Source: Cinnamomum chago
Taxonomy: Eukaryota; Streptophyta; Magnoliopsida; Laurales; Lauraceae
Length of the DNA stretch: 64,000 nt
Reading direction: 5' to 3'
Assembly: GCA_038049695.1 (NCBI GenBank)
Contig: CP142458.1
Span: forward strand, 60,235,501 to 60,299,500
The translations under genes and the position numbers were made by a program. Shown here one piece after another: positions 4,711 through 49,817 of this stretch. Each line of letters begins with the position of its first letter. The stretch's first letter is position 1. The notes beneath the pieces are model-generated. The model searched no databases, was not told the origin of the DNA, and was given only the letters and a program-made list of their open reading frames with translations.

Positions 4711-5096
4711 GTTTCTCATCATCTCATGAGTCACTTTACATTTGGTTCAAGGAATGTATTTTTATTCAAGACGGTTCCCAACACAGCGACTCCTAAAAAG
4801 GGTAAAATCACTTGAATCAATTTCAAGTGAGAGCAAGGGATGATTTTTGCACAGAATTGCCCCAATATGGTTACAAGACTTGAGCCCTGTGCACTGTCCC
4901 TTTGCCATTTCGCTCAACTAAAAATTAGAGAGAGTGAGGTGTGTGCTTCTCAGTATCGGATATCAGAATGTGAAAAACCAGCTTCGATCTGTGCTCACTT
5001 TCCCACGGCCTCTCTCTCATTCAACGCAAACCTACACACTCCCCTTATTCCATTCTTCAGGAACAGTAACTACACAAAACCTGCACATTACCATTC

Positions 5097-5228
5097 ATGG
5101 CATTTGAGGAGGAAGAAAGAGAGCAATACCTCGTTCCCATCTTCTTCTCGACCTTGGCCTTGTCGTCGGTTTGCGCCCTTCTTCTCGTTTTGTCTTTTGA
5201 TAGGGTTTTGAAGAAGCGTTCTCTTTAA
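5097..5228 (+). CDS. Conserved 43-aa membrane-anchored ORF (copy A), function unknown
   Basis: ATG at 5097 opens a 43-codon frame starting MAFEEEEREQYLVPIFF. It has an acidic N-terminus (residues 4–9), one hydrophobic segment suited to a membrane span (about residues 12–34) and a basic tail (VLKKR). The duplicate at 39180–39311 keeps ATG, length and stop, with three amino-acid differences. I do not recognise the family. It could be a first exon or gene fragment caught inside the surrounding CACTA-type element. No promoter or splice context confirms expression. Confidence 0.35.
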   Translation: MAFEEEEREQYLVPIFFSTLALSSVCALLLVLSFDRVLKKRSL

Positions 5229-5289
5229 TTACGAAGAGATGGGGATCTGCAGGGTTCTTTTTTTTAATAAAGGCGATCTGCGGTTAGGA

Positions 5290-5519
5290 TTTTTAAGAAA
5301 TACTTGCGCGCAAAAACAATAGAAATATATATTAAACAAAAAACATTTCCCGGGGCAATTAACGCGCCGGCTAAAGTATATTCGCCGGTCATTAACCTTT
5401 ACCTGGGAAAACAAGGATTCGGCAGAAAAATTAGAATGGCAGTAAAAGTTATATTTTCATCAGCATTTAACGATTGCGCTGGAAAAAAAATGGCAATAAA
5501 AGTACAAATTGTTGAAGTG
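5290..5519 (-). mobile_element. CACTA right-end subterminal region (copy A)
   Basis: Contains repeated CGCCGG/GCCGGC motifs spaced as in CACTA subterminal regions and ends GTACAAATTGTTGAAGTG at 5519. The better kept counterpart in B ends GTGCAAATTGTTGTGGTG at 39748, whose reverse complement resembles the CACTACAAGAAATTGC-type CACTA terminus. In A the end is fused directly to copia sequence (GTGTCCGGC...), a deletion relative to B. Confidence 0.5.
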
Positions 5520-6346
5520 TGTCCGGCATTGTATAATGTGCTATAATACCTTTCATTTCTAGAAATCTAGCAAACGGGGCCGGGTTACTACCCGATTCAG
5601 TATATCAACCGTAATACTCACCACCTCTATCAGATCTCACTATTTTGATTTTCATGTCTAATTACTTTTCTACTTCTGCCTTAAAAATTTTAAAGAATTG
5701 TAAAGCATCAAATTTTTCTTTAATCAAATAGACATAGCCATATCGTGAAAAATCATCGATAAAAGCGATAAAGTATTCCTCTCTCGTAAAACGTAAAATA
5801 TGAATTTTATCACATATATCTATATGAATAATTTCTAAGGGTGCAGAACTTCTTGTAGCACTTTTCTTGTTTGTATTGGTTTGTTTTCCCTTTATACAAT
5901 CAATACAAACACCATAATATGTGTTCTCTTACTCCCAACGTTCCATTATATTTTATGCTTGTAAGACGGCTAATCAAGCATGCACCTAGAGCTTTATCAG
6001 TTATTTGAAACTAACATTTTATAGCTTCTAGTAGGTCATTTGTATTTTCCTTTGCTTCGATGGAACCTCTAATGGTCCTCGAAATTGAGTTTGTAATAAT
6101 ACTTATTACAACCTTATTAGCCTTAATCCATTTATTATAGTTAGCCCTTTCATCAACTAAGCTCGCATCCGTAGGCATTGCTAGCTTAGACTCATCCAAA
6201 GCCATATCAAGGTCCAAGTAAGTAATAGCTAATAATAACATGTCCAGCCATTCAATAAAGTTTGATCTATCTAGCATGGGTATATTCACTAAAGTCGAAA
6301 GTGATGTTATGTAATTTGTAACTGAAGAAAAATAAACAAGTAACAA
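5520..6346 (-). pseudogene. Ty1/copia integrase and gag remnants (copy A)
   Basis: Reverse-strand remains of one copia element. Positions 5520–5915 match the integrase region seen at 40020–40373. Positions 5916–6346 match the gag N-terminus at 50700–51130 (motif NIPMLDRSNFIEWLD). The joint at about 5915 removes the zinc knuckle and protease region still present in B. Few bases are shared at the joint, which suggests a microhomology deletion. The coding sequence is truncated and non-functional. Confidence 0.8.
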
Positions 6347-36619: not shown

Positions 36620-38791
36620 GGTATCCTACGACACTAGCATCTTGTCCATATCTGTTCATATATGTAAAGTGATGGTACGCTCAAATTCAACCAATAGATG
36701 ATATAAAATAAATGCAAAAAAGAAAAATAAAAACAGAGAAAAAAGAACACAAATATAAGAAAAACAAAACAACAGTCTACACCTAAAATGCAAAACAAAA
36801 AATAAGAAAATAAGAAAAAATAACAATTAACTTAAGAATTTAGACAGATCAAGAATGATAAAATTTCCATTAAAGGAACAAGTACTTCTCTATCACATGC
36901 CAAAGACAATCATATAAAGAGGAGTGTGTGTGGTTTGTACTGTTTCCAATTAAAATATACTATAAGTACATGGTTTTGGCTCCACATATGACAAATCAGA
37001 TGTATGTGTAAAGAAGGAAGGATGCCCCCCACAAAAATGGATGGTTTAGGTTTGGATTTATAACAGATGTAGTTTTCTCGACATATCCTTTTCACAGACA
37101 TTTCAAGAATTTGATGATATTCAGAATATAATATACTCTTTTAAAATGTATGAATACCCTTATTTTAGTTTTAAAATTCTATACAACACTGTTACGATAT
37201 TATTGTGCTTGAAGGAAAGGGAATCTATAGGTTTGTCTTTGTAATTCAGGCGAACATGGTGGCAAGTATCAGTATATTTTGAAAATGCCCTGATAATATA
37301 CTAATATTTACTTTTTAAATTGATTTTTAGATATCATCATAGTTACAAATATTAGAAAACTGTGAAAATATCAAAAATAAAAATGTATGAAATGAGAGAA
37401 ATCTATAATATATCTTTAAGTGGTATTTTATTTTATTTTTCATTAAATCACAGTGTACCCATCTCAGATTTCCCATCTTCATCTCAACCTATCTCACAGC
37501 CTCATTTACTATTCACTATTTACATCTCAAAACATATTTCAAACCCAGCCATCACACCCTCTCATATCCATCATCACCATCCCAAAACTGCCCAGCACAA
37601 GATCTAAAATTCACACACATATTTGAAATCCATCAATAGTCCCAAAAAATATTACATAACTCCACCGTCATGTCAAGCTCATTCACCGATTCCATGCCCA
37701 TACATTCAAGCTGAAAATTTCAGTATATCATAATCAACAGTGGAAGAGCCCAGGGCACAGTTGGAAGATGTGCTCAATAACATAACATTGTGATTGCAGG
37801 GGTTTGTTTCCACTATCTTTAGGGGTTTGTTTGCTTCCAACAATTCTCATTCTTTGTTTGCAGGATTTCTGAGAATTCATATTAGGTGAAAGACATTCTC
37901 CAAATGCTGTCTACTAGTAGGATTTGCAAATGCTCAAGGACAACCCAACATTATAGAGAATTCCAAAAGCTACAAGTGATACTTCAGAAGGTTGAATTTT
38001 TAAAATATCACTAAATAAACAGAAATTTATTCCGGAAACTCTAGAGATGACAAGTGATATTGCTGTCACAAATTGCCAACTCATGGAATTGTCAAGAGAA
38101 ATTCCTCGGAACAAACAGGCCTTAGGAAATTGGATTCACAACATTATTCTAACCTAGTATAATTCAAGGCCTGACTTATTTATGAATCCAACCACGGGAT
38201 AAATCACACCCTTTTTTAGCCAAACCAGTAGTGAGGGCTTGGAGGCAGCGATGGAGCAAAATCCGTAAAATCCCCAAATTAAAGAAACCTGAAATCCCTT
38301 ACATCCCCAAAATCCAGCCCTAATCCTCATATCTATTCATATATTTGAGAACCTTCAAAAGCAATAAAATAGAAAATAAATCAGGATTGTGATGTTTTAC
38401 CTTGAGATTTTCGCAGAGAAAAGTAGAGAGAGCAGTTTGAGAGAACAGTGAGCAGAGAGAGACCTGGGTTCGTCTACCCCAAACGAACTGAATATCCTTG
38501 TCTCCAACCTTTGTTTCTACAAACCACAAAAACCCAATTTCAAACAAAAATTTAAAAAAAAAAAAAATGATCATCACACAAAGCATAAAAAAGAAGCCAA
38601 AACAAACCACAGAAGAATGCAGGCAATACTCATCTAATAAAAAAAAATTTCATGACAATCAGTTTTAATACACATCAACCCTGTTCAGAAACCACATTAG
38701 ATCAATACTCAATCCAATGTGTTTCCATGCAGTCAGTTTTAATACGCATGTTTGCCTGCAACAAGCATTTGATTTCTCATGAGAGCAAGAA
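36620..38791. other. CACTA-2 interior, no gene recognised
   Basis: AT-rich DNA containing a pyrimidine-rich stretch at about 37460–37600. No named domain was found on either strand. Confidence 0.45.
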
Positions 38792-39179
38792 GGCTTCTCA
38801 TCATCTCATGAGTCACTTTACATTTGGTTCAAGGAATGTATTTTTTTTCAAGACGGTTCCCAACACAGCGACTCCTAAAAAGGGTAAAATCACTTGAATC
38901 AATTTCAAGTGAGAGCAAGGGATGATTTTTGCACAGAATTGCCCCAATATGGTTACAAGACTTGAGCCATGTGCACTGTCCCTTTGCCATTCTGCTCAAC
39001 TAAAAATTAGAGAGAGTGAGTTGTGTGCTTCTCAGTATCGGATATCAGAATGTGAAAAACCAGCTTCGATCTGTGATCACTTTCCCACGGCCTCTCTCTC
39101 TCTCAACGCAAACCTACACACTCCCCTTATTGCATTCTTCAGGAACAGTAACTACACAAAACCTGCACACTACCCATTC

Positions 39180-39311
39180 ATGGCATTTGAGGAGGAAGAA
39201 AGAGAGCAATACCTTGTTCCCATCTTCTTCTCGACCTTGGCCTTGTCGTCTGTTTGCACCCTTCTTCTCGTTTTGTCTTTTGAAAGGGTTTTGAAGAAGC
39301 GCCCTCTTTAA
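39180..39311 (+). CDS. Conserved 43-aa membrane-anchored ORF (copy B), function unknown
   Basis: Second copy of the ORF at 5097. ATG, 43 codons and the TAA stop are all kept, and it differs from A at residues 27, 35 and 42. Here the upstream sequence is also open in the same frame from 38922, so the exact start is uncertain. One hydrophobic segment sits between an acidic head and a basic tail. No family recognised. Confidence 0.35.
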   Translation: MAFEEEEREQYLVPIFFSTLALSSVCTLLLVLSFERVLKKRPL

Positions 39312-39425
39312 TTATGAAGAGATGGGGATCTGCAAGGGTTTTGTTTTTTAATAAAGGCGATCTGCGGTTAGGAGTTTTTAAGAAATATTTGCGTGCAAAA
39401 ACAATAGAAAAATATATTAAACAAA

Positions 39426-39560
39426 CAAAAAGTCTACCTGGAGTAACTTTTTTGCCAGAATTTTTGACTACTCTATGATATCCCTTGAATATTCCCTTTA
39501 ATATTAATAGAATATTCAAGGGATATTATAGCTAAAAAGTTTGTCCAGATAGCACTACTG
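39426..39560. mobile_element. Mutator-type MITE, copy 1
   Basis: A 135-bp insertion, CAAAAAGTCTACCTGG...CCAGATAGCACTACTG, flanked by 9-bp TTAAACAAA (39417–39425) and TTAAATAAA (39561–39569). Duplicon A at 5331–5350 is the empty site with one TTAAACAAA. The ends match the element at 58801 in opposite orientation. Confidence 0.85.
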
Positions 39561-39864
39561 TTAAATAAAAAACATTTCCTAGGGCAATTAACACGCCGGC
39601 TAAAGTATATTCGCCGATCATTAACCTTCACCGGGGAAAATAAGAATTCGGCAAAAAAATTAGAATGGCAGTAAAAGTTATATTTTCCTCAGCATTTAAC
39701 GATTGTATTGGGAAAAAAATGCCAATAAAAGTGCAAATTGTTGTGGTGACCTGTCTCTGCAAGTTCATCTCCCTTTATAATAAGAACTTCTTTTTTATTC
39801 TAACTAAAACGACCAAAATCCAACAATGGCAACTCATAAAAAAGAACAACTAAAAAATCCAAAA

Positions 39865-40468
39865 TTAAATAAACTTATATACAATTATACTGAAAACCTT
39901 CCAATCAACACTAAAAACAAAGCAAAGATGGAAAAACAAAATTGAATCCAAATTGTTATAAACCATATCCATTAACGTTCTAATCCTTCTTTCGGCTACA
40001 CCATTTTGTTGAGGTGTGTCCGGCATTGTATACTGTGCTACAATACCTTCCATTTCTATAAATCTAGCAAAGGGGGTCGCCTCTATTGGATCTCACTACT
40101 TTAATTTTCATGTCTAATTGTTTTTCTACTTCTGCCTTAAAAATTTTAAAGAATTGTAAAGCATCAGATTTTTCTTTAATCAAATAGACATAGCCATATC
40201 GTGAAAAATCATCGATAAAAGCGATAAAGTATTCCTCTCTCGTAAAACATAAAATATGAATTTTACCACATGTATCTGTATGAATAATTTCTAAGGGTGC
40301 AGAACTTCTTGTGGCACTTTTCTTGTTTGTATTGGTTTGTTTTCCCTTTATACAATCAATACAAACACCATAATCGATGAAATCAAGATTGGGAAATAAT
40401 CCATTAGTCACCAATCTTTTTATTCTACGTTCAAAGATATGTCCTAATCTTTTGTGCCACAACCTTGA
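39865..40468 (-). pseudogene. Ty1/copia integrase, distal part
   Basis: Reverse-strand GAG-pre-integrase and integrase: SSRLWHKRLGHIFERRIKRL (zinc-binding His pair), CIDCIKGKQ, then the catalytic-core start LEIIHTDTCG and YFIAFIDDFSRYGYVYLIK. A deletion then joins it to the PQQNGVAERR segment near 39990–40020. The upstream (N-terminal) half of the polyprotein lies beyond CACTA-1, at 49818–51130. Reverse transcriptase is absent. The interruption at 40468/49818 is exact: removing CACTA-1 and one TGA restores codon continuity. Confidence 0.85.
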
Positions 40469-40471
40469 TGA
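40469..40471. other. Target-site duplication of CACTA-1 (left)
   Basis: TGA precedes CACTACTAG. The identical TGA follows the right end at 49815–49817. Confidence 0.85.
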
Positions 40472-40492
40472 CACTACTAGAAAAAAGGGTTT

Positions 40493-40610
40493 TTATATTG
40501 GTTACAAAAACTGTCCTATATCGGTTTTTCATATAACCGATATAATATCTTCAATCAAGATTTTTTATATTGGTTAATATTTTTTTTATATCGGTTACAC
40601 AGGAACCAAC
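40493..40610. repeat. CACTA-1 left subterminal repeats, outer part
   Basis: Several TATATCGGTT / AACCGATATAA motifs between the terminus and the TRIM-like insertion. Confidence 0.8.
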
Positions 40611-40615
40611 ATAAT

Positions 40616-41554
40616 TGTGACACCCCGGAGTCCCGCATCGACTATAGAGAGGAAAGTGAATGAGGTTATATGTAGAGCCTACACCCTTACCTTGCATGAG
40701 GCCTTTTAAAACCGTGCGGCCCCGGAAAAACGTAAAAACTCTGAGGTTAAGCGTGCTCGGGCGGGAGCAGTACTAGGATAGGTGACCTCCTGGGAAGTCC
40801 TCGCGCGTGCACACGGGCCAAAGCGGACAATATCATGCATGTGTGAAGGGTGGGGCGTTACAAATGGTATCAGAGCCAAGAGGCTACTGCACAGGGACGT
40901 ACAGCCCTAGATGGGTGGAATGTGACACCCCGGAGTCCCACATCGACTATAGAGAGGAAAGTGAATGAGGTTATATGTAGAGCCTACACCATTACCTTGC
41001 ATGAGGCCTTTTAATGGGTTGAGGCCCATCAGAAGCAAAACCGTGAGGCTCGTGGGTCAAAGCGGACAATATCATGCATGTGTGAAGGGTGTGGCGTTAC
41101 AAATGGTATCAGAGGATCTCCTCACCGGCAGAGGAGGCACGGGAGTGGAGTGCCGATGACGTAGAGTAGCGTCATCATTACTAGGCACATGAGAGACTCA
41201 CTTTGGGTCAAACATTATATTTTATTTATTAATTGTTATTTCTTCGTTGAACTTTCTTTCATTGACTCTATGTTGTTTTATGGCCTTAGTTTTTGGGATT
41301 GCCATAGTAATTAAATTAACTTTCACTTTACCTTTAATTGTTGCTTGCAACTTTAAATTTTAATTGAGATTTATTATTCATTGTTGATATCAATGTATGA
41401 ATTCCGCTATTGTTTTATGTTTTGAGGTTGAAATACATTATCCTCACAGCGGACTTACGATCCTTGGGCAAAAAAGGGCAAAATTTTTTAATTGGCCCAA
41501 AATTTCACTCTCCGGATTCGGTTTATTTTCTAATCGGGTTCGAGGGACGTGACA
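40616..41554 (+). mobile_element. TRIM-like LTR element with 5S rRNA segment (Cassandra-like)
   Basis: A 939-bp insertion flanked by ATAAT at 40611–40615 and 41555–41559, beginning TGTGACACCCCGG and ending ACGTGACA. LTR-like block 1 is 40616–40862, followed by primer site TGGTATCAGAGCC (40865). Block 2 is 40921–41101, again followed by TGGTATCAGAG. Block 1 contains a 5S rRNA-like segment, the hallmark of Cassandra elements; block 2 does not. The 3' 450 bp is unassigned, so the structure may be a recombinant. Confidence 0.7.
40737..40811 (+). other. 5S rRNA-like segment inside LTR
   Basis: The sequence from AACTCTGAGGTTAAGCGTGC through GGTGACCTCCTGGGAAGTCC matches the 3' two-thirds of plant 5S rRNA, including the box A, intermediate and box C promoter parts. 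It lies wholly within the LTR and lacks the 5' third of 5S, so it is a retroelement module and not a 5S gene. Confidence 0.85.
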
Positions 41555-41559
41555 ATAAT

Positions 41560-41820
41560 AATCTCTATATATAATATCGGTTAGAAAATATATGATATTA
41601 ATTTCTATATTTTATATCGGTTATTATAAAACTGATATTATATGCACATATTTTATATCGGTTATTACACATATTTTATATCGATTATTATGAAACCGAT
41701 ATTATATACACATATTTTATATCAGTTATTATGAAACCGATATTATATATACATATTTTATATCGGTTATTATGAAACCGATATTATATACACAATGATT
41801 TTACATCGGTTTTAAAATTC
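41560..41820. repeat. CACTA-1 left subterminal repeats, inner part
   Basis: Five to six tandem units of about 45 bp, each with ATATCGGTTATTATGAAACC and GATATTATATACACATATTT; each unit contains an inverted ATATCGGTT/AACCGATAT pair. Confidence 0.85.
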
Positions 41821-42064
41821 CTTAATATGCTGCTCCCTGTTCGGGCTCACTTGTTCTTTCCCTCATTTGTTTTTTTCCCAGCGCTCTCTCTCCCTCCAAA
41901 AACCCCTCTCTCCTCTCACTCACTCTCTTCTCTCCTCACTCTCGCTCTCTCTACTCTTCTCTCACTCTCTCTCCTCTCCCTGTTTCTTTCGCTCACTTCC
42001 GTTCTCTTTATCTCCTATTTTCCAACTTTGTTCGGCTAGCGGCTTTCAAGTTAAAGGCTAGAGC
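41821..42064 (+). promoter_or_regulatory. Pyrimidine-rich leader-like region
   Basis: A CT-rich tract (CTCTCTCTCC, CTCACTCTC...) directly after the subterminal repeats and before the first captured ORF resembles a plant 5' leader. If CACTA-1 is transcribed, this is a likely start region. A 23-base C run follows at about 42258–42280. Confidence 0.35.
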
Positions 42065-43036
42065 TTGATTCGGCTAGCCGCCTCCAAGTTGAAAGCCAGC
42101 CTCCGTAAGCTCTGCACGGACCACTTTTTTCCTTTACCTCCACGGACCACCTTTTTCCTTTCCCGTTGCCTGTCCCGCGCTCTGCTTTCCCCCTTCCTTC
42201 TCCCGCGCCCACGTTTTTCCTTCCCCGTTTTTCTTTCCCCTTCCTCCCTCTGCTTCCCTCCCCCCCCCCCCCCCCCCCCCTTCCCTTTTCAGGCATCTGA
42301 CTTTCCCCCTCTTTCCCGCCCCTCCACATCGCAGCCAGACTCGGCAAGCCTCCGCTTCCAGCAAGCTTTGCCAGAGGACCCCTCTCAGGTACTCAAGCAG
42401 CCAGATCTGGTTTCCCTTTCCCCTAACCCTTCTTCTGTTTCTCCTTTTCCAGTCTGCTGGGACTGTGCCGAGCTGGAACTTCTGCAAAATCATTTAGCTA
42501 GTTTGATCAATTCGGTCAAAGGCCAACACTCTTTAGGACATTCAAATCAGCCCCCAATCTCCCCAAACTTCCTTCCCCCCTTGAAACCCCCAGACCCTAG
42601 GCCCCCTAACATCCTCTATGCAATGCCTCTGCCTCAAACCCTCAGCCAGCACTTTCCTCCTGCTGCTAACAGTAACTGGCTCGATCTGTTCCTCCATTTC
42701 AAACCCATAGCCCCATCAGAATATTCCCCCTCTTCCCTAATAGCAGGCCAGCTAGTTATGAAAATCCCCTCCTCCATGATAGAACCCAGCAGAAACTCCT
42801 TCTTGTATCCTGCTATTGGGAGATTTTTTGGTAAAAGACCTACTGTAGAGTGGCTAACCCTCCTAGCAAACCCTTCCTGGAACCTTTCTAAGCCTTGCCT
42901 TATATCTCTTACAGATAAGGGCCTCTTGCTTTTCAGATTCAGCTCCAAGGAAGACAAGGACCTAGTCGTTTCACTATCTCCCTTCACCCTGGAAAACAGA
43001 AAACTTCATCTCCTCCCTTGGTCCCAGGGTTTCTAG
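42065..43036 (+). pseudogene. LINE ORF1-like fragment (DUF4283 domain)
   Basis: A 323-codon frame. The first half is low-complexity Pro/Ser/Phe-rich sequence with a poly-Pro run from the C tract and is probably not a true protein. The last 80 residues (about 42790–43036) read like DUF4283, the nucleic-acid-binding N-terminal domain of plant L1 ORF1 and related proteins: IGRFFGKRPTVEWLTLLAN, WNLSKP, LLLFRFSSKEDKDLVVS and LLPWSQGF. No CCHC knuckle follows; the next recognisable sequence is the LSM14-like segment. This is most likely a captured transposon or gene piece inside CACTA-1. Confidence 0.5.
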
Positions 43037-43098
43037 ACGCCATTGCTGCAAAAGCAGAAGCATCTGGTTCTGGGGGCTGTGCTGGGTTGGTCTTTTCC

Positions 43099-43200
43099 GA
43101 CATAGGTAGCTTGATTAGCCTTACATACGAGGACGAAATTCGATACGAAGGCATTCTCTTCCTCAACAATGTGATAGAATCTGTCATCGGCTTGAGCGAT
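43099..43200 (+). pseudogene. Captured LSM14/DCP5 (Scd6) N-terminal fragment
   Basis: The frame reads DIGSLISLTYEDEIRYEGIL, followed by an IESVIGLSDG segment. This matches the LSm14 N-terminal domain of plant DECAPPING 5 (YIGSLISLTSKSEIRYEGIL type), which acts in mRNA decapping and P-bodies. A possible splice donor follows at 43202 (G|GTAACC). Only one exon's worth is present, and it is in a different frame from the DUF4283 fragment. Confidence 0.65.
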
Positions 43201-44890
43201 GGTAACCTTGTTCTATTTGAAAACTATATTAAGGAATATTGGTGGGACAGCCAAACTACTATCCACACTATTTTAAGGAAATTTCATAGATTATATTTTA
43301 AGGAAATGCTTCTATTGGGTAGGATCATTGATCTAAAGATTGAAGTTGTAGGTTTTGATTGGTTGAGGGTTTTTTTTTAAATGCTAAATATGACTCATAC
43401 TATTGATCTCTAACTAGCTGAGCTATAATATGGGATGGTTGAACATTTTTTTAATATAATTAAAGAAAACATTTTGGTATGAATGCATGAGTAAATGAAT
43501 TGTTCTGTTTCAAGTGATTATTTTCCCTGCAGGAAATATGTTCTTTGTGCTAGACTTGTTGTGGGTGTTGTTTTGATCATTGTTGCCTATGCTATTTGGA
43601 TGGCTAGAAATTGGCTCCTCTTTGAGAAATTGTAGTCCATCTCAGTTAAGCTAAATGTTCCTACCTCAAGCTTCTCTTATATTTTTAATACCAAGTGGAT
43701 AAATGATTTTTTTTTTTTTGTTAATAGTTGGTCGTTGGTATTGGTCAGGCTTACATTCTTGTTAGTGTCATTGGCAGTTTTATAGCCTATAGGATGCATA
43801 TTTCCAAGCAAAGAAGTATGCAGCAGGATATAGCTGAAACATTCTACTATTAGAGATAAAACTAGTTCAGCCCTTCGTTGAGCCCCAAGAGAAACTGATT
43901 TAATTGGTTACATGAATGGAGTCTTAAGTAGATTTGTTTATAGAACCATTATATGTAACATGTTTCATGTTTATGCAATTGTGATCCATTGATCAACTTA
44001 ATGCATGGGATAGAGTCATTTCTGAAGGTCTGACATCTTTCTAGTAGTTAATTAATGCTGAAGTTAAAAGTAAATGTGTGTGCCTTGAAGCTCTCATGTC
44101 TCACAGTCTATATAGAAACTGACCGCCATTTTGCTTCTTGTGAAAAGCTGCATAATTATTTTATTCTCATGGGCTTGTTAGACCCATTGAATCCTTTAGT
44201 AATGTTTGCACTGATAATTGCATAGGTTGGATATGAAAAGCTAACTGTGGAGATCTTCAGAGCTGCTCTAGGTAATTTGGTTAATTTGAAGGTGTATGGA
44301 ACAGAGCATTTTATGGAGAAAAGGACACTATAAAGAGAAAGAGGAAAAAAGACTCCAAGGTATATGCTATGTGCTATGGTATTTGGTTACATAATCTGGA
44401 GTTCATCAAATCTAAATATTTGTCCTACTAATGATATTTCAGCTAAATATTCGAGGAGGGGGGGAAATTATATTCGAGGAGGGGGGGAAATTATACTTGA
44501 AAGAATATCAAACTCTACCTCTTATATGTGAAAGTTTTGCCATACTTTGTCTTGAAATTCTTATAGGACTTGTAAGTGCTTTTAAATTATCTATTTAATG
44601 GACTACATCTTTACCTTTTCCACTCCTATGAAATGAGGCTGACTTTTTCCTTTTTTTCTATATTACTGATATTGGTTGCAGGAGCGCCTCCATGGTCTTG
44701 AGATGCTTGGCTTATTTATTATAAGTGTGACGTTTCAGATCATAACCAATGGGTTTATATTTAAGTTGTTTTTTGCAGCCATGTATTAGTCAACACTTAT
44801 CGCAAAGGATCCAATAGTGGGGTTTTTTCTTTTAGTTTGGGATTTTTGTTTGAGTCATTAGTCAACACTTACAGCCTACTATTAGAGCTC
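43201..44890. other. CACTA-1 interior, mostly unassigned
   Basis: AT-rich DNA. Positions 43536–43635, after a CTGCAG acceptor-like site, translate to VAYAIWMARNWLLFEK, reminiscent of the end of plant LINE ORF2 proteins (weak). A 23-bp unit TATTCGAGGAGGGGGGG... is tandemly duplicated at 44448–44493. Nothing else named. Confidence 0.4.
44448..44493. repeat. Perfect 23-bp tandem duplication
   Basis: Two identical adjacent units, each with a run of seven G (44448–44470 and 44471–44493). Confidence 0.9.
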
Positions 44891-44893
44891 AGC

Positions 44894-45917
44894 TATCTAC
44901 CAGGTCCATGGCACTGTGAACCAGAGGAGGTTGAGTCTGTTACCCCATTCAGGGTAAAGAGAGAGATCATACTTATACTTTTAGTTGCTCTTTTCGTGTT
45001 ATATTTACTTGTATTTTTAATGTTCACCTTGATATTCTAGATTGGCGATCAAGTATGTGTGAAGAGATTTGTTGTAGAACCAAGATATGCTTGGGGCGGT
45101 GAGACACACCACAGTATAGGCACCATAAGTGAGATAGAAAGTGATGGTCTACTTATAATTGAAATTCCAAATGGACCTATTCCATGGCAAGTTGATCCTG
45201 CTGACATGGAAAAGGTGGAGAGTTTCAAAGTAATATCATATCATGTAGTTTTACTTCTTATCTTAAGTAACTTTGATTATGTCATATTTGCTTGGAACAT
45301 GGATGCAAGGTGCCAGGTGTGAGGAGCTGTTATAAGTATATTTTGTCATACAGCTTTTAGTTTCTAAAGTTACTTTCGTGAATTAATAAAATACAATGAA
45401 AGAATTCCCTAAATGACATAGGCACATAGCTATACTCCACCCAAAGGGCATATGTCTGTTGATTGTGAACCTCATTTGTAGAAACCAGATAACCTGAGCA
45501 TGCTGCACTCTTTTATGGGCTGAGCATTGCATAGTATGCCTTTCATAATGGTGGTGTTGATGTGTCTGACATGGCTGTGAGAGATAAAAAAAAATAATAG
45601 AAAAGGATGGCCTTGTCATGTTGATGTGTTCAGGACAGTGGCTATTTGGAGCTGGCAGGGTGTTTCCGGAAAGGAAGGTGGATGACCCACTACACAGATG
45701 TTGAAAAGGTAGATAGCTTGAAGGTTGGGCAGCATGTTTGCTATGGGTATGCAAGGCATGGGAAATGGAAAAGGTGAGAGCATTCAAGGTGGGAGACAAG
45801 GTGAGGATCAGAGGGGGATTGGTGACACCTAGGTGGGGATGGGGTATGAAGACACCTGCAAGCAGGGGTGAAGTGGTAGGTGTGGATGCGAATGGGAAGC
45901 TAAGGATCAGATTATGA
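44894..45917 (+). pseudogene. KEG: Captured KEG (KEEP ON GOING) ubiquitin ligase fragment
   Basis: Exonic pieces encode the C-terminal HERC2-like repeats of KEG, a RING–kinase–ankyrin E3 ligase of the endomembrane system that controls ABI5 turnover. Piece 1 (to 44953) reads GPWHCEPEEVESVTPFR. An intron of 87 bp, GTAAAG...TTCTAG, follows. Piece 2 (45041–45229) reads VKRFVVEPRYAWGGETHHSI and GLLIIEIPNGPIPWQVDPAD. Piece 3 (from 45634, after an AG) reads GYLELAGCFRKGRWMTHYTD. Piece 4 (about 45765–45917) reads VGDKVRIRGGLVTPRWGWGM and GVDANGKLRI, the protein's extreme end. RING, kinase and ankyrin parts are missing, and repeats between the pieces are deleted. Retained introns show DNA-level capture. 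Confidence 0.85.
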
Positions 45918-46078
45918 TGAAATATGGTTGGATCTTGCTTTCTATGGAGTGGGATTTTGGTGGGGGTATTTCCTATGGGTTATTCTCCTTCTATAAACAC
46001 TGATTCTCTTCTTCTTTCTCTTGCTATTGCAAATTCTTCTCCTTGTTTTTTCTTCTTATCTTCCTCTAGCAATCAGCA

Positions 46079-46394
46079 ATGGCTATACCTGCTGAAACCA
46101 AATTCCATGTTCTAGTTGTTGATGACAGCCTTATAGACAGGAAACTGATTGAAAGGCTTCTCAAAACCTCATCTTATCAAGGTATATTGTTATTCACTGA
46201 TGATGAGGAGAAAAAAAATCTCAACTTTGTAAATTTTTTTGGTTTTCTTCATCTGGGGTATTGAATTTTCTGTTTTTCTTTCTGGGCTTTGTGTTTTTAT
46301 AGTTACAGCAGTGGATTCAGGGAGCAAGGCTCTGGAATTCTTGGGCATACATGGTGAACAGGGAACCTCACCTTCTGGATCTTCAGAAAGTCAG
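46079..46394 (+). pseudogene. Captured type-A response regulator fragment
   Basis: Exon 1 (46079–46181) starts [20 protein letters not shown] and continues [14 protein letters not shown]. Intron 46182–46302 is GT–AG. Exon 2 (46303–46394) gives VTAVDSGSKALEFLGIHGEQ and ends at a GTAATT donor. This is the start of a plant type-A ARR, a cytokinin-inducible negative regulator. It includes the acidic DD pair of the receiver, but the phospho-accepting Asp and the rest of the receiver are absent. The upstream CT-rich sequence (about 45970–46078) may be the donor gene's 5' leader. Confidence 0.85.
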
Positions 46395-46434
46395 GTAATT
46401 GAAAGATTTCTTTATATCTGGTTTCAACTTGCAG

Positions 46435-47178
46435 TTATGGCTCTGCCTAGTGAAACCCGAAACAAGTCATCTAACTCACACCAAGTGCATCCAACTCTCA
46501 ATGAAAGATTACTTTCAAGCTTTTCCAGACGGGAAGTTGCAGTGCACCTTTGGCATGATCTGGAGAAGGTACTAAATAACCTCGTTTTCTACTTCTTCGC
46601 CCCCCGTCCCCTCCTCTAAATGGCTTGTTATAATCTCTTAGATTAGTTATTATACTGAATTAAATGATGAAGTTTTAGAATGACTTTTCGTTTGCGTATG
46701 AAGTGAGAGTTTATGATGATTCAGCTATTGCTATGTTATACTTTAGTTGTTTTTTCTTGTTTTGACTTTGCAATTATGGATGCAGGACCTGGAGCTCCAT
46801 CAATATTCAATTGTGTAAGATACTAAACTCATTTTGTTCAAAATAACAGAAAGATACTTGTAGTTAGACACTTTGATGAAATTCTGTTATGCCCAGGATC
46901 CTGAATATTACCGTTGGAGTCTATTGGTTGGCTTCAAGCCATTGCATGCTAGCCATGCCATCCTTATCATATTTACTAAGAGTGATTGATTTTTCCAAAA
47001 AAAAAAAAAACTGGAAGAAGGGAATGATGTCTTAGACATTTGAAATATTGGAGTCCCTAGAATTTATTAGTTAACACATTATGCCTGTACTTGTTGATGA
47101 CAGCCTCACAACTACGGTTTCATCCCTCGGACTCTTTGTGGGGATAATGGCCCAATGGATGTCTTGGTCCTCATGCAG
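46435..47178 (+). pseudogene. Captured soluble inorganic pyrophosphatase fragment
   Basis: Three exon pieces lie in order with splice-like borders. Positions 46435–46568 give LNERLLSSFSRREVAVHLWH, 46786–46814 give GPGAPSIFNC, and 47104–47178 give [20 protein letters not shown] followed by LVLMQ and a GT donor. These match the N-terminal half of plant cytosolic family I pyrophosphatase, which hydrolyses PPi. The exon encoding the KYELDKKTG region between pieces 2 and 3 was not found, so the gene piece is internally deleted. The metal-binding D in the DNxxD motif remains. Confidence 0.85.
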
Positions 47179-48105
47179 GTATCCATTTCTCTTGCTACAT
47201 GATTTCCATTTTGAAATTTATATTTGCAACATAGGTCTTCATGCAGTCACCAAGACACATAAGAGGTATTATTATAATGCCATCCTGAATTACAGTGTTT
47301 GCATATGGGCCTAGCATTCTGTATGATTGGAAGCCCTTTTTCAGCAATATAAATCCTTCATTTTTGAGCTTCACCATAATCAGGAAATGGAACAGAAGTT
47401 TCCTCAATGGAACAATCCATTCTCTTCATTGGTGATGTTTTGAAGTTGAATATGAATTATTGCCTACATATATTTTATAACTTACCATTTGCAAACTTTT
47501 GAAGTCATTCAATCAACAGTCATTTTCTACAAAATAAGTTGGTTGCTTGAATGAGGAGGATTTTCTTTAATTTCTTCATTGTTTTAGTAAGTCAATGCAA
47601 GCTACACCTAACCCACTATCTTACACTCATGCTCCTTAATTTAATACAATGATGACTACCTACTGAGTAGTATTGACTAATATTAAGCCATGTCTGGGTC
47701 AATCTAAGTTTTTTTTTTTTTTTGTTTTTTTCGATTGGGACGGACAAGTTTCAAGATGATGGATTGAAGGTTCTAGGGTTTCAATTAGGTCCTTTTTGTG
47801 TGTGCACCTTCTGTTTCTGCATTTTCTGTTCACTGATTTTTATGTGGTTCATCATACCAAAGTTTGGCTTTGGTGTGATTTACTGATTTACATATTCAAT
47901 TGCTTGTTGTGGATGGCTTACTTACTGGAAATGTCATAGGTCAATACTATGAAGATAGATTTTTGAGGTCGTCTGATTGAATTGCTTTGTAAAATGATTC
48001 AATTAATTATGCATTCATGAATTCTGAATATAAAGCAAAATATTGTGAATCTCATGGGTCCCTACAATTATTAATGTAAAATCTAGTTTTTTCTTAGCAT
48101 GTTCA
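47179..48105. other. CACTA-1 interior, no gene recognised
   Basis: AT-rich, intron-like DNA with a T-rich run near 47710. May include introns of the captured genes. Confidence 0.4.
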
Positions 48106-48119
48106 CTAGGTCAGCATCC

Positions 48120-48216
48120 ATCTTTGGTGCAACTTCTTCTCGTGAAGAGAGGGGGGCGTGTTATATATGGGGGCAAGCTTGGCGTGAACTCACAAATTAT
48201 GATAAACTATTTTCAG
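48120..48216 (+). pseudogene. Captured PDR-type ABCG transporter exon fragment
   Basis: The frame reads [20 protein letters not shown] followed by QIMINYFQ and a GTGAGC donor at 48217. This matches the segment after the first or second nucleotide-binding domain of plant PDR/ABCG proteins (ELLLMKRGGxxIYxGxLG). The preceding bases (CATCCATCT, HPS) may be a shortened PSIDIFEAFD region. The fragment is one exon end only. Confidence 0.7.
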
Positions 48217-49042
48217 GTGAGCATTTGTTCTTCATATTATCATTCTTTTGTTTTTGGATCTTTTTGAATTTTTGAATTTATACTTTAAAAAAATGTAGCA
48301 GTTGGAATTATTTACCATGTCTCACTATCTGATAAATTATATTAGCTTTATTATTCTTCTCATCTTATTCACAAATGACATTATTTGCAGCAGCTGAGCT
48401 TCAGCTATTGTCTTTGTTCATTTTTAACTAAATTGAACTTCATGGTTCCTTAATTAAAAAAAAATGGATTATAAAGTAAAAAGTGCATTTCTTTTGATTC
48501 TCATCATTTTAAGTTTTTATGATGGTAATAATGGTATCAACAACATGGCAGAAACATTACCCATTTAACATAAACTCTGTTAGACATATGAAGAAAAAAT
48601 TATTTCTTCACTCAGGATTCCTAATTTACTGTCATGATTTAATTGCCTATAAATCGATGGTTAGGAGAGAACTTCAGCTCCTTAGTTTGCCAGTATCAAA
48701 TTAATATGATGCAAGTGTTTGGCCACCTTAGTTTTGAGAATGTATTGTTGCTGTTGGTTGTTTTAGCAGTCGTCTACATTCTTCCCTTTCACCTTATGTA
48801 ATTCATGCTTGAGGCACTTCTGGAATGAGTCCTGGGCTTTAATGTGGTATGATTGTGGTGTTTGTTGTGTTCTTTTATTTTCTATGAGATGGATATGATC
48901 GATTCACTTATATAAGTAGCTGATGTAGTGGCCGGTGGGCCATCACGTTCATGAAAACTCCATATAAATCACGTTCTTTTGGTTTTTTTGTTTATATATA
49001 GTTCCAACTTTTTGTACATCCCATGGAAGACAATGTAGATAC

Positions 49043-49074
<32 letters not shown>

Positions 49075-49290
49075 ATATTTTCATAGAGATTTGTCTAGAC
49101 AAGCTTTATGTTAATTATTAATTAGTTATATATATATTTATATATATGATCACTTTATATATATAGTGCAAAGTTTTATTGGTGTACAGTGTACTGCAAT
49201 GGTACTGTAGGTTTATTTTATGGTATTGCAGGTTTTATAGGTACTGCAGCAATGCAAATTCTTTTGATAAAAAAAATGCATATATAATAT
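48217..49290. other. CACTA-1 interior, no gene recognised
   Basis: AT-rich DNA with (TA)n/(CA)n microsatellite at about 49036–49073. Confidence 0.4.
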
Positions 49291-49795
49291 TAAATCGGTT
49301 ACAGAACAAACGATATAATACAATCCCAAAAAACCGATATGACAAAGCCCTTTATAACCGATATTATAAATAATTTTTATATCGGTTTCACTCTTTTTTA
49401 TATTGGTTTTACAGTAATGTATGCTATAATTTCAGTTTCAAAACACATCAGTTCTCCGAAAAACCGATATTATAAATAATTTTTATATCGGTTTCACTCT
49501 TTTTTATATCGGTTTTACAGTAATGTATGCTATAATTTCAAAACACATCAGTTCTCCGAAAACCGATATTATAAATTTTTTTTATATCGGTTTCAATTTG
49601 TTTTATATCGGATTTACAGTAATGTGCTATAATTTCAGGTTCAAAGACATTAGTTGTCCAAAAACCGATATGAAATAATACACATATTATATCGGTTATA
49701 GTTGTTTATTATATCGGGGGTACTTTTATCGGTTTGAAGTTTACTGAAAAACCGATATAATAGGTCTTTTATATCGGTTTTTAGCCGACATAAAA
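49290..49795. repeat. CACTA-1 right subterminal repeats
   Basis: At least ten AACCGATAT or ATATCGGTT motifs. A unit of about 110 bp (ACAGTAATGTATGCTATAAT...CATCAGTTCTCCG) is repeated three to four times. Confidence 0.85.
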
Positions 49796-49817
49796 ACCCT
49801 TTTTTCTAGTAGTGTGA

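Follow-up and report, generated by a model that had tools for sequence, protein, structure and literature searches.

How does a transposon come to hold pieces of several unrelated host genes: does it take them up one by one, or can it obtain them already joined? The question is raised by a 9,343-bp element with CACTA ends, whose cargo lies on a single strand, at positions 40472-49814 of a 64,000-nucleotide stretch of Cinnamomum chago DNA (assembly GCA_038049695.1, contig CP142458.1, positions 60,235,501 to 60,299,500 of the forward strand; the whole stretch is called the window below). An earlier note, made from the letters of the window, described a CACTA transposon in which pieces from five or more host genes lie in one orientation, among them LSM14/DCP5, KEG, a type-A response regulator (ARR), soluble pyrophosphatase (PPase) and a PDR-type ABCG transporter, and held this number of donors in one copy to be remarkable. 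The five names hold, that of ABCG on weak evidence, but the number is not new: the soybean CACTA element Tgm-Express1 carries pieces of exons and introns from five unrelated host genes, according to the available part of its description (PMC1947982), and multi-donor CACTA elements are a known kind, also among Pack-CACTAs (available part of PMC8903248). What our results show is that the KEG-ARR-PPase array is not private to the window element. CACTA elements with three other types of terminus contain overlapping sections of it, and a different module of the same cargo (43207-44530) sits in a fourth terminal type, F3. We think it likely that the element, which has ends of type F1, is a non-autonomous CACTA transposon whose cargo was partly built from composites circulating between CACTA families.

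The array, on the plus strand like all the cargo, is a succession of rearranged KEG fragments with introns (44775-45907), an ARR fragment made of leader, exon 1, intron and exon 2 (45908-46412), and a PPase fragment with introns (46413-47502). By the curated cut-offs of Pfam, the SH3_15 repeats of the first piece (2.1e-9 and 4.1e-8) and the pyrophosphatase match of the third (4.6e-9) lie above the threshold; Response_reg (9.8e-5) lies below it, as do LSM14 and DUF4283 further to the left. The profile match names the SH3_15 repeat, and we take the pieces with it to be KEG, just as we take the response regulator to be of type A. A search for the donors in the same genome, which the earlier note had proposed, gave likely source loci for four pieces on four contigs, all other than the one carrying the window (C8), and none for ABCG. 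The ARR source (L042, C1:118.94 Mb) is 94% identical with gaps and 96.4% without, and runs on into more ARR exons, exons 1-3 scoring 1.1e-10 with Response_reg. The PPase source (L043, C2:77.49 Mb; exons at 7.4e-51) matches in two parts, at 93% and 97%, and 721 bp of it are absent from the element between 47099 and 47104. The KEG source (L067, C10:59.60 Mb) matches at 87% and 92% over 44873-45625, has more KEG-like repeats on both sides, and contains 336 bp that the element lacks. Finally, an LSM14/DCP5-like locus (L057, C4:7.69 Mb) matches at 86% over one exon. For LSM14 and ARR, which are short, these DNA matches are further evidence beside the profile scores. Since introns are retained, capture took place at the DNA level. 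Twelve loci of nearly the same score, for example C11:17834090-17834580, match part of the KEG piece (45102-45562) at 88-89%, as copies of a further repeat that is perhaps young.

Four of our five DNA searches gave 208-933 first-look candidates, 40 of which were scored in each; the search with 43000-48300 gave 375, of which 40 were scored. Besides the window element and its segmental duplicate (see below), we retrieved 28 loci, which fall into four groups. Group A (10 loci) falls within 43207-44530. Group B (9 loci) has various starts from 44775, and ends at 46238/46239 in eight cases. Group C (5 loci) covers 45563-46948 or part of it, and group D (4 loci) covers 46022-47390. The KEG-ARR junction at 45908 is present in 8/9 B loci, in all five C loci and in one further locus, L041; the ARR-PPase junction at 46412/46413 is found throughout C (5/5) and D (4/4), and the internal PPase deletion at 47099/47104 in all four D loci. 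Because these sections cross identical artificial junctions, they indicate common descent rather than repeated capture.

The carriers differ in their ends. Group C has the terminus CACTACGTCAAAAA (type F2), with one whole element of 5,898 bp flanked by the target-site duplication (TSD) TAT. Group D has CACTACAACAAATGGG (type F4) in an element of 8,498 bp, and group B has CACTACAACAAATTGC and CACTACAAGAAATTGC (type F5), with one whole element of 10,610 bp and the TSD ACT. Group A has the right end CACTACACCATAATAAT (type F3), found at three different flanks, and one A locus has CACTGCACC. When whole elements were compared with the F1 element, the F2 element matched in a single segment of 1,388 bp (97.0%), the F5 element in a single segment of 744 bp (98.4%), and the F4 element over 1,371 bp (96.7%) plus two overlapping matches of 55-60 bp at 80%. 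In a comparison of nine arms (for F3 the right one only), left and right arms matched each other within F1, F4 and F5, and a single 21-bp match was found between types. The B and D elements have in common two pieces, of 366 bp and 142 bp, that are absent from the window element. They also have sets of their own: RB_A (retinoblastoma A), malectin (weak, 0.0021), KEG/ARR and Bax1-I in the F5 element, and DUF7903, ARR/PPase and multicopper oxidase in the F4 element (extra-cargo loci L036, L048 and L049 on C11, and L016 on C4). A scan for captured domains returned only the KEG repeat from the F2 element, and none from the cargo strand of L052, a locus with a right arm like that of the window element.

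The presence of several joined pieces in transposons with different ends suggests that captured scraps pass between transposon families. Gene pieces would have been joined stepwise as dead genomic DNA with introns, first KEG to ARR and then ARR to PPase. This order follows from L041 (C3:83614000-83619000, 93%), which has only the KEG-ARR junction in common with the array, so that PPase was probably added after the joining of KEG and ARR. Captured composites may then have been taken up again by other CACTA families, for example when elements adjoin or nest and subsequently move as one unit or are miscopied in repair. The F1 element would thus be a collector of several ready-made modules. Whether host fragments more generally form a common pool, in which multi-gene cassettes pass between CACTA families with unlike ends, each multiplying its own section, and many-donor elements arise mainly by cassette trading and not by separate gene captures, is to us an evenly balanced proposition. 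If cargo does pass between families, the family that first captured a piece does not fix its fate, and DNA transposons, in shuffling exons, could make multi-gene chimeras faster than capture rates suggest. Overlapping sections, with known source loci as roots, make the capture route testable within one genome.

The array might instead have been assembled in the F1 lineage, from which the other types took their sections. The full array was found only in the window element and its duplicate, among the loci seen, and the sections of the other carriers all fall inside it. Yet the two full copies represent one insertion and its segmental duplicate, and a tree built from 12 rows of positions 46022-46948, with the two source loci as its root, places the window pair (99/96) beside, not below, a group made of C and D (89/87), in which C (95/92) and D (86/87) each form one clade. 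We regard an origin in F1 as somewhat doubtful, although the approximately unbiased test does not reject trees in which the window element is held with C or D (p-AU 0.078). A derivation of the window element from C and D is not favoured by the best tree, and the same test leaves it unrejected. A single uptake by each type, with later spread, would fit the two clades. The tree of the KEG/ARR section has no root among source genes; in it, a split with a support of 98 separates the window pair from B and C. Probably, though not firmly, the window element neither gave rise to the other carriers nor descends from them.

We consider it unlikely that the array originated in something other than a CACTA element, such as a Helitron or a different composite repeat, and that each CACTA type captured its own section from there. 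This would fit L041, where the KEG-ARR junction lies with a longer ARR piece and with pieces of bZIP (4.7e-8) and RPN10 (PDB match 4.3e-16), and where none of the three subterminal motifs tested is present, its ends not having been looked for. It would also fit the best tree, which does not make the window element the source of C and D. However, the carriers have CACTA-type ends wherever termini were seen, at 10 of the 28 loci of groups A-D (one of the D elements without its outermost bases). L041 also has a piece that we presume from its motif to be MYB-CC-like; neither this piece nor that of RPN10 has a Pfam match.

It seems improbable that inserted elements came to share cargo through unequal recombination or gene conversion, without new captures. 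Many copies are 96-99% alike and provide plentiful templates, and boundaries are variable within groups A and B. But the compared elements have almost nothing outside the cargo that is able to pair, and boundaries recur exactly: 46022 and 47390 in 4/4 D loci, 45563 in 4/5 and 46948 in 5/5 C loci, and 46238/46239 in 8/9 B loci. We find it most improbable that the cargo works as a chimeric gene or has been selected as a regulatory RNA: ARR and PPase splice sites and short open exons are still present, and exons of Tgm-Express1 are spliced into chimeric transcripts according to the available part of its description (PMC1947982), but eight codons in the ARR and PPase first exons differ from the source loci with a change of amino acid and none silently, differences affect 13/439 exon and 54/1148 non-exon positions (p 0.16, on small numbers), the Met codon of L057 (its probable start) is ATT in the element, and the KEG frames are broken. 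The ARR and PPase pieces give no sign of coding constraint in this comparison of few sites. The element is likely of no use to the plant beyond being moved; at most, it may feed small RNAs against its source genes.

Several observations weigh against the passage of composites between CACTA families, which remains our preferred reading. Termini were seen at a minority of the loci (A 3/10, B 2/9, C 3/5, D 2/4). Type F3 is represented by its right end, the left lying outside the sequence reached; the F4 element has the flanks GAT/ATT and thus no exact TSD, and the second D element is the one without outermost bases. The separateness of the types is also imperfect: the first 13 bp of the F4 and F5 left ends are identical, and the F2 arms do not match each other, so that their failure to match other arms is no proof of a separate F2 origin. 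One carrier of another cargo module (47709-48122) has F2-like first 13 bp followed by a left part unlike the F2 element. Moreover, the full cargo order is known from a single insertion, and the loci examined include no intermediate stage, for instance an array enclosed by two CACTA types. Lastly, the branching order is weak, both in the 46022-46948 tree, given its p-AU, and in the KEG/ARR tree, where the support for the split falls to 73 when L041 is added.

Comparison with known systems is limited to the available parts of their descriptions. Tgm-Express1 resembles the present element in its superfamily and in its five host donors; it differs in size (5.7 kb) and donor genes, and nothing is said there of its cargo being shared with other terminal types (PMC1947982). 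Pack-CACTA and other Pack-TYPE elements hold host DNA between CACTA ends, with multiple donors, most in maize Pack-CACTAs; capture is explained there by neighbouring insertions with compatible ends, whereas here one composite lies between unlike ends (PMC8903248). In grapevine, pieces of ULP1, a single host gene domain, occur in distantly related transposons, which was ascribed to repeated independent capture or to loss; the CACTA families described here have artificial multi-gene junctions in common (PMC2528002). Maize Helitrons gathered several donors by sequential steps and are alike in stepwise capture, but the present element differs from them by its CACTA terminal inverted repeats (TIRs) and 3-bp TSDs (PMC3288121). 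We found no description of a composite array with artificial junctions common to CACTA elements with unlike ends in the parts we could consult of the open-access literature subset.

The element itself has the features of the CACTA superfamily. It starts with CACTACTAGAAAAAAGGGTTTTTAT at 40472 and ends with the exact inverse at 49814, so that the left TIR (40472-40496, plus strand) and the right one (49790-49814, minus strand) are identical over 25 bp, beyond which the arms diverge; TGA is duplicated at 40469-40471 and 49815-49817. The perfect inverse termini and TGA duplications of the earlier note are thereby confirmed. The element contains subterminal ATATCGGTT repeats in both orientations, 12 of them forward and 10 reverse. 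The 1.06-Gb genome has 425 forward and 430 reverse occurrences of the 18-mer end CACTACTAGAAAAAAGGG, and none of its reversed control in either orientation (0+0). One relative with a tnp2 transposase was found: the 14.6-kb element C1:106112083-106126653 has exactly the same 18-bp ends and encodes Transposase_21 (7.5e-97), Transpos_assoc, DUF4218 and DUF4216. Compared with the window element, it is 83% identical over 0.8 kb of the right arm and 81% over 160 bp at the left end; parts of the left arm are also present in it, and its flanks, ATC/ATA, form no exact TSD. No transposase family was found in the window element, as had been claimed, on the plus strand of 41830-49290 or on the minus strand of the whole element; the plus strand of 40472-41829 lay outside the scan. 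Lack of an own transposase within these parts, together with host-gene DNA copied from the ARR, PPase, KEG and LSM14 source loci, is the mark of Pack-CACTAs. Because a relative with the same ends encodes Transposase_21, the element is a non-autonomous, Pack-CACTA-type member of the large family F1, which has a transposase; presumably it depends for movement on the tnp2 transposase of its relatives, acting in trans. Family F1 is many-copied, yet the present cargo arrangement corresponds to one insertion, duplicated together with its flanks. Helitrons have neither TSD nor TIR and end in a 3' hairpin with CTRR; having both TIR and TSD, the element is not one of them (the hairpin was not searched).

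The left arm (40472-41829, plus strand) holds subterminal ATATCGGTT repeats and is broken by a later insertion. Next to it, the LINE (long interspersed nuclear element) ORF1-like piece noted earlier is borne out by DUF4283 (42120-43025, plus strand; 1.8e-5, just under the cut-off). It is followed by the LSM14/DCP5 exon fragment (43026-43207, plus strand; 5.6e-5), and these two pieces also occur together at other loci (L055, L056). Then comes the module shared with F3-type elements (43207-44530, plus strand), to which no origin could be assigned. A second module of this sort (47709-48122, plus strand) is 98-99% identical in four other loci, one of them only from 47725, and 95-97% over part of its length in two further ones; in one carrier it follows a CACTACGTCAAAA end. 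The right arm (48117-49814, plus strand), common to L053 (same terminus) and L052 (one-base variant), starts with the PDR-type ABCG exon fragment (48117-48216, plus strand), present in three other loci besides the duplicate. This is the weakest of the five gene calls: it is based on the similarity of a 38-residue peptide to a PDR transporter (E 7e-4), there is no Pfam match, and the 72-residue open frame found nothing among solved structures. No intact ABCG source gene is among the seven genome matches (the window, the duplicate, three loci of the same right-arm type and two repeats), which are second-hand copies. The two repeats (L069, L070), 95.5% alike, have the PDR-ABCG piece beside a glutamate dehydrogenase piece, by translation and by PDB matches run on L069 peptides.

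A second copy, at C8:59863056-59874011, lies 0.4 Mb away and retains both ends and the same order, bar one private insertion in each copy, so the termini belong to one element and not to two insertions. The flanks of the copies match over 2 kb on the left (96.3%) and 0.5 kb on the right (98.6%). This rules out an independent insertion and makes the copy a segmental duplicate, not a second transposition. The search for other copies with the same cargo, proposed in the earlier note, gave this one alone among the loci scored, and no second independent insertion. The insertion site is within a Copia element, with gag_pre-integrase and integrase on the left and Retrotran_gag_2 on the right, all on the minus strand; a Copia-type flank (38400-40476) recurs at 4711-5914 of the window. 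The insertion in the left arm (40616-41554) has no counterpart in the duplicate. With its tgacaccccggagtccc...ggtatcagag repeats, it has the look of a small element of the long terminal repeat type, which we would liken to a TRIM (terminal-repeat retrotransposon in miniature). The duplicate has its own 2.45-kb insertion (L039/L010, C8:59864244-59866692) at the position of window 42585-42588.

F1-type ends were also noticed at two further places. At C1:89889977-89905932, ten of them follow each other in the same orientation at intervals of about 1.7-1.8 kb, and a single end of opposite orientation stands 28.5 kb beyond; this looks like a tandem array made from a CACTA end. A 13.9-kb element at C1:57523675-57537605 (L065, L066) has exact F1 ends and the TSD TAG/TAG, and its longest open frames resemble, by translation, a retroelement polyprotein.

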